50,757 bases of DNA. Origin: Lachnospiraceae bacterium (GTDB taxonomy: Bacteria > Bacillota > Clostridia > Lachnospirales > Lachnospiraceae). The stretch spans positions 1-50,757 of the forward strand of contig JAFUGL010000075.1 in the NCBI GenBank assembly GCA_017469405.1, in the 5' to 3' direction. The notes under the pieces are model-generated. The model was not told the origin of the DNA. It saw only the letters and a list, made by a program, of their open reading frames with translations, and made no database searches. Every line of letters begins with the position of its first letter. Positions within the stretch are counted from its first letter, which is position 1. Position numbers and translations under genes: made by a program. This document shows positions 37,446 through 44,009 of the stretch, in pieces.

Positions 37446-38318
37446 TTGAGTAAAAAGAAAAGGACTACTGCCATCATTTTACTCATCGTTATCGAGCTTT
37501 TGCTTGCAGCCGGAATTGCATTTACAAACGGGGCGGTGGAAAAGCATGAAACGATTAAGGAAATGATGAGAGATGCGGTGCTCCACGAGGAAAACAAGAT
37601 AAGTCTTTTCGGACTTTCCGTTAATCCTTCGCTTATAGCGGGATTTACCGTGACCGGAATCGTACTTATCTTTGCATTGATTGTGAGGATCTTTGTTATA
37701 CCGAGATTCAAAAATGTACCGGGAAAATTCCAATTGGTATTGGAAACCTGGGTTGGATTTTTTGATAATCTGGCAAAGACAAACAGTCCGCACAGCAACG
37801 GATTTTTGGGAGCATATATATTTGCAACGGGAACCTATGTATTTACGGGTACTTGCTTTGAACTGTTCGGAATTCAGGCAATAACTACCGAAGGACATTC
37901 CATATCACTTCCGGCACCGCTTGCCGATATAAACGGAGCGATTATGATGGGATGCTTATCATATCTTATTATATTGTCTGGCGGTATTATGAATAACAAG
38001 TTAAGAGGTGTGGGACTTACATTGAAGGAATTCTCACTTCCGCTATCTATGAGCTTCCGTCTTTTCGGAGCGCTCCTTTCGGGTATGCTTGTTACGGAGC
38101 TTATATACTTTACCTTGGGACTTTCGATATTGCTTCCGGTAGTTGTAGGCGTTGTTTTCACATTACTGCATGCGCTTATACAGGCATACGTGCTTACACT
38201 GCTTACGGCGATATTCTACGGAGAGGTTTCAGAACCGCCGAAGCTTAAGGAAAAGAAGCAAAAGAAGAATAAGAATAAAAATGATGCCGAGCCGGATGTG
38301 AAGGTTCAGGAAGCATAA
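37446..38318 (+). CDS. atpB: ATP synthase F0 subunit a
   Basis: 290 residues. Multiple membrane segments; the key helix reads 'PLSMSFRLFGALLSGMLV' with the essential Arg near the middle and later 'FTLLHALIQAYVLTLL'. It forms the half-channels for ion flow against the c ring. The start is TTG at 37446: AAAGGAG lies 7-8 bases upstream and no ATG is nearby. The C-terminal tail is Lys/Asp/Glu-rich (KEKKQKKNKNKNDAEPD), longer than usual. First gene of the operon; no atpI precedes it. Confidence 0.95.
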   Translation: MSKKKRTTAIILLIVIELLLAAGIAFTNGAVEKHETIKEMMRDAVLHEENKISLFGLSVNPSLIAGFTVTGIVLIFALIVRIFVIPRFKNVPGKFQLVLETWVGFFDNLAKTNSPHSNGFLGAYIFATGTYVFTGTCFELFGIQAITTEGHSISLPAPLADINGAIMMGCLSYLIILSGGIMNNKLRGVGLTLKEFSLPLSMSFRLFGALLSGMLVTELIYFTLGLSILLPVVVGVVFTLLHALIQAYVLTLLTAIFYGEVSEPPKLKEKKQKKNKNKNDAEPDVKVQEA

Positions 38319-38386: not shown

Positions 38387-38890
<504 letters not shown>

Positions 38891-38908
38891 CAAAGCGAGG
38901 TGTGTAAT

Positions 38909-39415
38909 ATGGTACTCACAGGATTACCTCTTAATATTGATTTTCAGCAGATATTACTCCATCTTGCTAACTTTGCCATACTTTTCTTCGGCTTATACAT
39001 TCTTCTTTATAAGCCGGTTAAGGATTTTATGGATAAGAGACAGGCACATTATAAGAGCCTTGATGATGAGGCCAATGATAAGCTTGCCAGTACAAAGGAA
39101 AAAGAAGAGGAATATCTAAACAAACTTAACAGCGTTGATGAAGAGATAGATAAAAAGAAAAAGGAAGCTTCTGCAAAGCTTGATACCATGCGTGTTGAAA
39201 AAGAAAAGGAAGCTAAGGAAAAGGCAGATAAGATTGTTGAGGATGCACGCTTAGAAGCAGAGAGCGTCCGTACCAATATCATCAACAGCGCAAGTAAAGA
39301 TATAACCGATATGGTAAGTCAGGCGGCTGAAAAGATATTTATGAGTGATGATATAGAAAAGGCTTATGATGTTTTCTTGGAGGATGCTGAAAGGAGCGTA
39401 AAGGATGGAGAATAA
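38909..39415 (+). CDS. atpF: ATP synthase F0 subunit b
   Basis: 168 residues. One N-terminal membrane helix ('[20 protein letters not shown]', with the [11 protein letters not shown] boundary typical of b) precedes a long charged coiled coil (about 40-140). It ends '[19 protein letters not shown]', a normal b C-terminus; no delta N-domain is fused to it. The ATG at 38909 is preceded by GAGGTG; a GTG at 38900 overlaps that site and is rejected. The end overlaps the atpA start by 11 bases if atpA begins at 39405. No atpH follows, contrary to the standard gene order. Confidence 0.93.
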
Positions 39416-41189
39416 AATGCCCGAAAAGCGTAATGCATATCTCTATGCCAAGACAGCACCCACACAGGAACAAAAGGCAAGATTTGAGAGCTTTCTTAAG
39501 CAGAAATATAATGAGGATATAAGCCTTGAATGGGTAGAAGATAAAGAAATAAGAGGCTTTAAACTCATTTATGATACGGAAATATTTAACTGGACTCCGG
39601 AGGGAAGATTTGCCCAGTTTAAGGATAAGTTAAATGAGATTTCCATGAGATATGCCAGCAAGTCACAGCCTGATCAGATGATTACCCTCCTTAAAAAGTC
39701 CATCGAAGACTTTGAACTTGAGGCAGTTGCCGAGGAAGAGGGTAAGGTCAAAACCGTAGGTGACGGTATCGTCGTTGTGGAAGGTCTTGACTCGGTTAGG
39801 TATGGCGAGATAGTAGTCTTTGAATCCGGTGTAAAGGGTATGGTTCAGGATTTAAGACGTGGTGAGATAGGAGTTATCCTCTTTGGTGAGGATGATGAGA
39901 TAACAGACGGAAGTCTGGTAAGAAGAACTAAAAAGACTGCCGGTATTGCCGTAGGCGATGGTTTTGTAGGCAGAGTTGTAGATGCTCTCGGTAACCCTAT
40001 TGATGATAAGGGTGATATAGCAGCGTCTGATTATCGTGCCCTGGAGACACCTGCACCTAGTATTATAGACAGACAGCCGGTAAATGAACCGATGGATACC
40101 GGACTTTTATCTATTGACTCCATGTTCCCTATAGGACGAGGACAAAGAGAGTTAATCATAGGTGACAGACAAACAGGAAAAACAACTGTTGCCCTTGATA
40201 CAATACTTAATCAGAAGGGTAACGGCGTTATATGTATATATGTTGCCATAGGACAAAAGGCGAGCAGTGTTGCACAGCTTGTCGGCACATTAAATAAGCA
40301 TGATGCCATGGGTTATACCATAGTCGTAAATGCTTCGGCTTCAGATCCGGCACCGCTTCAGTATATAGCTCCTTACGCGGGTACTGCTTTGGGAGAATAT
40401 TTTATGGAGCAGGGCAAGGACGTGCTTATTGTATATGATGATTTATCAAAGCATGCGATTGCATACAGAGCTTTGAGTCTTTTGCTTGAGCGTTCACCGG
40501 GACGTGAAGCATATCCGGGAGATGTATTTTACCTTCATTCAAGACTTTTGGAGCGTTCTGCACATCTGTCTGCCGAAAGAGGAGGCGGTTCACTTACTGC
40601 GCTTCCTATAGTAGAAACTCAGGCAGGAGATGTTTCGGCATATATTCCGACCAATATTATATCCATAACTGACGGTCAGATTTTCCTTGAGAGTGAGCTT
40701 TTCTTCTCGGGACAAAGACCTGCGGTAAATGTCGGACTTTCCGTATCCCGTGTAGGTGGAGCTGCACAGACCAAGGCTATGAAAAAAGCGGCAGGCGGTG
40801 TAAGACTTGACCTCGCACAGTACAGGGAGATGGAGGTATTTACCCAGTTTTCAAGTGACCTTGATGATGCAACCAAAAGACAGCTGGTTTACGGTCAGGG
40901 ACTTATGAGACTTTTAAGACAGCCTCAGAGCCATCCGATGAAGCTTCATGAGCAGGTTATAACCCTTGTTTCGGCTACCGCTCATGTTATGCAGGATATA
41001 CCGCTTGAGAGCATGCTAGATTTTAGAAATAAGCTTTTTGATTATTTCCATACAAATGTTATGACACTTTGTAATACCATAGATGATACAGGTCTCTTAT
41101 CCGATGACGATAAGCAGACTATTATAGATGAGTCAAAGAAGTTCTGTGACAAATACCTTGAGGGTATGGTAAATGAGGACGGTGAGTAG
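39405..41189 (+). CDS. atpA: ATP synthase F1 subunit alpha with N-terminal delta-C-domain-like extension
   Basis: 594 residues; ordinary alpha has about 500-505. Alpha homology starts near residue 90 ('[19 protein letters not shown]', then '[14 protein letters not shown]'), with Walker A '[14 protein letters not shown]' near 252 and '[13 protein letters not shown]' later. Residues about 17-80 ('[20 protein letters not shown]', '[13 protein letters not shown]', '[14 protein letters not shown]') match the layout of the C-terminal domain of the delta subunit. In E. coli delta this is LSEQQ...KIDKSVMAG...GSVRGRLERL. No separate delta gene exists in the operon, so this looks like a delta(C)-alpha fusion. 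An ATG at 39417 is an alternative start (GGAG ahead), shortening it by four residues. Confidence 0.95.
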
Positions 41190-41191
41190 GA

Positions 41192-43506
<2,315 letters not shown>

Positions 43507-43595: not shown

Positions 43596-44009
43596 GTGGA
43601 GCATACATTTAAAGCAAGAATATATGAGGCAGACAGTCCGTTTTTTGAAGGGGAACTTACTTCGGTAGTAGTTCCTGCGATAGACGGAGAGTATGGTGTA
43701 TTGGCTAACCACAGAAATGTCGTTATAGCTATCGTTCCGGGAAATATGCACTATACTTTACCGGATGGCACAGTAGAATATGTTATAGTTTCCGAGGGTA
43801 TGATGAGGGTTGAAAATAACGATGTATTAATCCTCATTAATCAAGCCGAAAGACCTGATGAGGTAGAGGCAAACCGTGCCAGAGAAAAAGAAGAGGAGCT
43901 TATCGAAGCAAGACTTCAAAAGAAAAGTGTAGAAGAATATCTCGAGGCTGAGCTTTTGATGCAAAGAGCTATGGCAGGCCTTAGAGACGGCGGCCATAGA
44001 GTTGACTGA
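43596..44009 (+). CDS. atpC: ATP synthase F1 subunit epsilon
   Basis: 137 residues. The N-terminal beta-sandwich ('FKARIYEADSPFFEGELTSV', 'GEYGVLANHRNVVIAI') is followed by a two-helix C-terminal domain (about 88-135, 'ANRAREKEEELIEARLQKKS'). Start is GTG at 43596 with a strong AAGAGGTGAT upstream. Last gene of the operon; the MITE-like palindrome follows after 10 bases. Confidence 0.95.
   Translation: MEHTFKARIYEADSPFFEGELTSVVVPAIDGEYGVLANHRNVVIAIVPGNMHYTLPDGTVEYVIVSEGMMRVENNDVLILINQAERPDEVEANRAREKEEELIEARLQKKSVEEYLEAELLMQRAMAGLRDGGHRVD

Follow-up and report, generated by a model that had tools for sequence, protein, structure and literature searches.

The ATP synthase operon and the extended AtpA

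The 50,757-nt stretch of Lachnospiraceae DNA analysed here (the window) encodes, all on the forward strand, an F1Fo ATP synthase operon of the order atpB-E-F-A-G-D-C without atpH. AtpB (subunit a; 37446..38318; PF00119, 60 bits) is followed by AtpE (subunit c; 38405..38890; PF00137 at residues 94-157), which carries an N-terminal extension of about 85-90 residues, and by AtpF (subunit b; 38900..39415; PF00430, 53.6 bits), on which the delta C-terminal domain (CTD) described below presumably docks. Downstream of AtpA (39405-41189; 594 aa) lie AtpG (gamma; 41192..42121; PF00231, 308 bits), AtpD (beta; 42118..43506), assigned by operon position and length and by the second PF00006 match of the contig (251.7 bits), and AtpC (epsilon; 43596..44009; PF02823, 69 bits). 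In the stop-to-stop frame of AtpE the leader comprises 91 residues ahead of the core and looks signal-peptide-like by eye. The end of atpF and the start of atpA overlap by 11 bases, and a Shine-Dalgarno-like AAGGAG lies 8 bases 5' of the atpA ATG. Since this overlap leaves no room for a gene in between, it rules out an assembly gap as the reason for the missing atpH and upholds the gene order of the preliminary description, which had no delta gene between atpF and atpA. No delta gene was found in the operon among the open reading frames or by Pfam scan; a b-delta fusion was likewise not found, AtpF being 171 aa long with no PF00213 match at E 10.

The alpha core of AtpA occupies 39666..41189. 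Residues 88-584 match TIGR00962 (atpA) at 733.3 bits against a cut-off of 484.45, which places the protein among the F1 alpha subunits, and the score against TIGR03324 (606.4 bits), an alternate F1Fo alpha model that we take to stand for the N-ATPase, is under the cut-off of 750.5. The first 87 residues precede the TIGR00962 match; the roughly 85 extra N-terminal residues noted earlier are confirmed as 85-87, with the coordinates right. These residues form the delta(OSCP)-CTD-like extension (39405..39665; domain proper at about residues 10-80), and the end of the linker and the alpha N-terminal helix follow (about residues 88-103; 39666..39713; predicted helix 90-101 / 89-102).

When residues 1-112 of the window protein were scanned as a single sequence against Pfam and NCBIfam, delta (PF00213) was not found at E 10, and our own delta HMM aligned positions 10-80 of the stop-to-stop frame with HMM positions 110-182 at only about 15 bits. 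Such results would be expected if the extension were an unrelated domain that resembles delta by chance, a reading that we regard as extremely improbable. Against it, hhalign of the extension to a 33-sequence delta alignment covers columns 111-190 with a probability of 97.1 and an E value of 7.1e-11; a profile of stand-alone deltas finds all 108 CTD-only extensions at 12 bits or more, while none of 1080 shuffled sequences reaches 10; and PF00213 matches 50 of 53 aligned relatives of the extension at E 0.01 or better, the window being outside those 50. The predicted fold of the extension is E-H-E-E-E-H with delta/OSCP as the best structural match, and among PDB sequences profile A2 matches the engineered chain 9jc1_I best (E 9.3e-8), with an alignment that runs through the alpha N-helix. 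In addition, full-length fusions of the same genus place both delta domains at the same site. Chance resemblance was rejected on the shuffles and the profile comparisons. The Pfam comparison with delta is thus below threshold for the window sequence alone but clear with relatives, and the parallel to the delta CTD drawn in the preliminary description is borne out by the profiles of relatives and the predicted fold. A model of the whole AtpA (mean pLDDT 72.7) has, among the 50 structural matches listed, matches to the alpha part only (residues 87-592), with 9jc1 absent. The distance from the domain end to the barrel motif GDGI has a median of 38 residues in the CTD-only cores.

Taken together, profiles and predicted fold show that AtpA is a natural fusion of the b-binding CTD of delta onto the alpha N-terminus, that the delta N-terminal domain (NTD) has been lost, and that the operon lacks a separate delta gene. 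Since the NTD is absent, AtpA of the window has a single domain of delta and does not count as a delta subunit. This corresponds to the delta-deltaN-alpha fusion architecture of Ueno et al. (2025), with the CTD on alpha and both the NTD and a separate delta absent.

Distribution and origin of the fused frames

Relatives of the window display three states. In some genomes of the same genus an alpha of about 683 aa is fronted by a complete delta, which aligns with positions 8-171 or 26-171 of PF00213 and scores 83, 82, and 70 bits; such full-length delta-alpha fusions (about 680 aa, NTD kept) are found for example in the same-genus loci L021, L022, L023, and L025, and the record of Pseudobutyrivibrio ruminis DSM 9787 (L119) also encodes a full-length fusion, together with an H+-like c subunit. 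In a full-length fusion each F1 has three delta NTDs, although the axis offers a seat to only one. Other Lachnospiraceae encode a separate delta directly 5' of alpha in the same frame, with one in-frame stop in five of six loci and two in the sixth. Because this delta/stop/alpha arrangement is common in ordinary operons too, it is a likely starting point for fusion but not a special one.

We classified 227 alpha frames in 246 loci as CTD-only (127, two of them by frame length alone), full-length (42), or unfused (58), and merging of identical alpha cores reduced the 227 to 203 (108, 38, and 57, respectively). Left out were L134 and L135, whose Walker A GDRQTGKS was missed by the pattern and which are CTD-only by eye, L029 (a truncated 192-aa frame near a contig end), and loci without a recognised alpha. 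An NTD HMM was positive in 38/38 full fusions and 57/57 unfused loci, many of which trained the profile, and in none of the 108 CTD-only loci, the window included, in up to 900 nt upstream of alpha (best score 5.7 bits). A hidden NTD upstream of the CTD-only alphas was rejected on this result, and the preliminary claim that the fusion drops the delta N-domain holds. The 5.7-bit match lies upstream of the L056 alpha and is possibly a decayed remnant or chance. The fetched flanks of fused alphas contain no other delta-like frame of at least 60 aa above 15 bits, and 80 named loci, several of which end at contig ends, contain no separate delta-like frame of at least 55 aa on the operon strand. A Trp in the alpha N-helix region (equivalents of window residues 95-112) occurs in 59/108 CTD-only, 0/38 full-length, and 1/57 unfused sequences.

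Of 397 genomes drawn evenly from the window's family, 175 match profile A1, a profile that matches stand-alone deltas too, and at least 74 have a fused frame of about 570-790 aa with no stop within the match; the survey of Lachnospiraceae that had been proposed thus finds fused frames repeatedly. Further fused frames were found outside the family, both within the class and in four families of the phylum beyond it. The genome collection yielded 110 stretches that encode relatives, and scoring of the best 80 of these gave 60 CTD-only and 18 full-length fusions (78 loci scored). Judged by the titles of their records, the 78 loci belong to Lachnospiraceae (41), Eubacteriales without family (12), Eubacteriaceae (8), Oscillospiraceae (6), Clostridiaceae (3), and Acutalibacteraceae (1), with 7 unranked. 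Acutalibacter sp. 1XD8-36 and the Lachnospiraceae bacteria AC2029, C6A11, FE2018, and XPB1003, all with isolate-type record titles, have the CTD-only fusion. The order a-c-b-alpha-gamma-beta-epsilon is present in 70 of the best 80 loci; in the other 10 it is cut by locus ends, split, or altered by a beta-labelled frame at alpha or an extra piece, and none of the 10 has a separate delta-like match.

For phylogenetic analysis of alpha, 115 of 202 alpha cores were taken as representatives at 86% identity with the extension excluded, and the window stands in this tree as L010, whose extension is 97% identical. Class labels were fixed before any tree was made, and 55 rows for a more careful tree were chosen after the first tree had been seen. 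In the 115-row tree CTD-only rows form the window's large group, are scattered among or near full fusions, and make up two groups, one of 7 and one of 5 rows, nested within the canonical alphas. The starred branches of this tree force at least three changes of the CTD-only label and the careful tree forces at least five, although such counts do not separate gain from loss and recombination of alpha genes could mimic repeated origin. With the 55 rows, 0% of 200 bootstrap trees show a single CTD-only group. A common clade is rejected by the AU test both for the CTD-only rows (p 9e-46) and for all fused rows taken together (p 4e-6). Regain of the NTD in register is less plausible than its loss, and we read the trees as pointing to repeated fusion and repeated NTD loss. 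The window's group stands beside full fusions and above unfused rows in the quick 115-row tree but below some unfused rows in the careful one, so that full fusion first and NTD loss second is, for the window, a possible order of events.

The second F1Fo enzyme and the coupling ions

The assembly (2.75 Mb, 91.5% complete) encodes two F1 enzymes, that of the window and one on contig C17 whose operon consists of a, c, b, delta, alpha (500 aa), gamma, beta, and epsilon. A V-type ATPase as a third enzyme was ruled out, the two remaining PF00006 matches being FliI and Rho. The genome-wide search for atpH gave one match, a normal gene inside the C17 operon. The preliminary claim of a missing atpH is therefore correct for the window operon and wrong for the genome, and although a normal atpH elsewhere had been named as a finding that would count against the fusion, the fusion is not refuted, for the gene belongs to a different F1Fo.

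The window enzyme could still borrow the whole delta from the C17 operon, with the extension as an accessory. PF00213 searches were run on 80 of the 89 listed fused genomes. A stand-alone delta of at least 128 bits is encoded in 54 of the 80, the window's genome included, as such borrowing would need; the other 26 comprise 17 CTD-only, 7 full-length, and 2 ambiguous genomes (G128 and G135, the latter with delta pieces at contig ends). In the 17 the CTD-only fusion is the sole PF00213 match, which argues against borrowing, as does the position of the C17 delta in an operon with all other subunits. Eleven of the 17 genomes are at least 95% complete, and in some of the 17 the match continues 5' through stop codons, over a long distance in G122 and G197, perhaps by chance. 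From these searches delta in trans was judged unlikely, and we consider a borrowed delta very improbable for the window enzyme.

In the Na+-type c motif, helix 1 has a Gln and helix 2 has Glu-Thr and a Tyr. All of these residues are present in the c subunit of C17, whereas the window c subunit is without the Na+-type Gln in helix 1. With the coupling ion assigned from c-subunit motifs only, the window enzyme is probably H+-driven, and the canonical C17 F1Fo in the same cell is probably a Na+-type enzyme with one stalk. An Rnf complex is encoded on contig C60 (16446-17726; RnfC, 508 bits), and no match to a NiFe-hydrogenase large subunit was found in the assembly. A comparison of the window's c subunit with those of L057-L136, which left out L085 and L108, gave c leaders of 56-182 residues, likewise signal-peptide-like by eye, in the window's large group (stop-to-stop frames, hence upper bounds) and no such leader (28 residues or fewer) in the operons of full-length fusions and of scattered CTD-only fusions.

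Stalk number and comparison with known systems

According to Ueno et al. (2025; PMC12229609), the delta NTD of known F1 sits on the axis, where it binds the N-termini of alpha, and b is bound by the CTD; no ATP synthase described so far has more than one a subunit, and c-ring size is assumed to determine the H+/ATP ratio. In their engineered Bacillus PS3 enzyme the delta NTD was deleted and delta residues 105-178 were joined to alpha, and as many as three stalks were present, every one of them with an a subunit. The number of stalks per engineered molecule ranges from 0 to 3, with a mean of about two according to gel and H+/ATP and of 1.26 according to cryo-EM (15, 51, 26, and 8% with 0, 1, 2, and 3 stalks); the H+/ATP ratio was about doubled (5.8 vs 3.0), and the NTD is held to limit stalks to one (PMC12229609). 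One paragraph of the same text names natural cases, i.e., Acidaminococcus fermentans, whose fusion lacks the NTD and whose enzyme very probably carries several stalks, and the UniProt entries G4Q3K6 and A0A1I2C5T3, which look similar (PMC12229609).

For the window, the sequence and the alpha3 stoichiometry of F1 give three docking domains per F1, so the three b-binding sites foreseen in the preliminary description stand as potential b-docking domains. The stoichiometry puzzle raised there has been answered experimentally for the man-made PS3 fusion (PMC12229609). Each of the three alphas would present one b2-docking domain atop F1, and the axial position usually taken by the delta NTD would be left empty. 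Given three docking domains and an empty axis, a single F1Fo may be able to take up two or three b2 stalks and one a subunit for every stalk. Since each a subunit passes one ion per c subunit per turn, ions per ATP would then rise to two to three times c/3, and the result would be a low-gear enzyme suited to ATP synthesis at low proton-motive force, or to exporting more ions per ATP in reverse. The b subunits of eight fused operons compared (window, CTD-only, and full-length) end in F/Y-x-x-F-L, while the C17 b ends in IDETL; this candidate common site of the fused operons' b is consistent with docking but is no proof of it. One a and one b gene are present per operon, and gene dosage says nothing either way on stalk number.

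The same fusion could instead be built into an enzyme with one stalk, b2 occupying one of the three domains while the a-b2 assembly on the c-ring or sterics leaves two empty; the fusion would then only secure delta and fix its expression. This is a reading of some weight, although we find it rather doubtful. It accords with the single a subunit of all ATP synthases described so far and with the stalks often missing from cryo-EM of the engineered enzyme, where 8% of particles have three and 51% have one (PMC12229609). The full-length fusions speak for it as well: they keep the NTD, also present three CTDs but leave no empty axis, and yet persist, so fusion alone need not mean several stalks. 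Set against it is the absence of the stalk-limiting NTD in several separate groups (at least three or at least five label changes, with one group rejected by the AU test). Internal starts might instead supply a mixture of fused and unfused alpha and so restore the usual one delta domain per F1. Met84 and Met95 of the window protein are suitably placed, L245 has a six-base match before an ATG, and a 4-base Shine-Dalgarno precedes 18% of 108 internal starts versus 5% of 146 positions inside alpha, an excess that leaves a small doubt. By contrast, matches of at least five bases occur at the alpha helix in 4% of 108 and in 0% of the control, but in 73% when the best start 5' of the domain is taken; Met95 is not conserved, and no Shine-Dalgarno is seen by eye before Met84 or Met95 of the window. 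Internal starts for an unfused alpha are thus weakly supported at best, and we give a mixed enzyme of this origin hardly any credence. On balance we favour, as somewhat probable, the whole explanation of a CTD-alpha fusion with the NTD lost and a multi-stalk low-gear enzyme, probably H+-driven, beside a Na+ F1Fo. That two or three of the three docking domains would be filled has about even odds.

The CTD-alpha domain architecture itself is not new, since the natural cases named by Ueno et al. (PMC12229609) put such a fusion already in print. In a literature search whose coverage excluded most subscription papers we found no further account of the fusion or of multi-stalk enzymes, and within the same coverage nothing in print on how widely it occurs in Lachnospiraceae and their relatives, on the full-length class, on repeated origin, or on its link with genomes that encode two ATPases. 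We rate the window's group as distinctive in its long c leader and its separation from other CTD-only groups. More tentatively, and slightly short of what we would call probable, Bacillota may have reached the delta-CTD-alpha fusion several times independently, with the window encoding a proton-driven low-gear motor of two to three a subunits beside a one-stalk Na+ enzyme; natural multi-stalk ATP synthases would then extend well beyond a single genus. If this is true, the ion-to-ATP ratio depends on how many a subunits an enzyme has and not on c-ring size alone, and ATP-yield estimates for gut and rumen fermenters would change. Repeated evolution of the fusion with which the engineered enzyme holds several stalks would make a second natural way to set the ratio testable in anaerobes with isolate genomes, and the full-length fusions would be a natural control for what limits stalk number.

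The engineered PS3 enzyme (PDB 9jc1; PMC12229609) and the window enzyme are alike in the CTD, the short linker, and the retained alpha N-helix, with the NTD and a separate delta absent. The window enzyme differs in being natural, in an epsilon CTD that is not engineered away, and in its long c leader. A. fermentans, G4Q3K6, and A0A1I2C5T3 are likened to the window by description only, with the same domain order and the NTD missing (PMC12229609). Our own trees contain at least two further CTD-only groups apart from that of the window. Pseudobutyrivibrio ruminis, as reviewed in PMC11187502, resembles the window's genome in having two ATP synthases in one cell and two-ion energetics; its strain DSM 9787 belongs to the full-length class, whereas the window's genome is CTD-only and has Rnf and no NiFe-hydrogenase match. 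The b-delta fusion of mycobacteria (7jg5_d and others) likewise has the delta CTD covalently joined to another stator subunit. That fusion is present in one copy per enzyme and keeps the NTD. In mycobacteria delta is joined to b, whereas in the window its CTD is joined to alpha, three per enzyme, and without the NTD.
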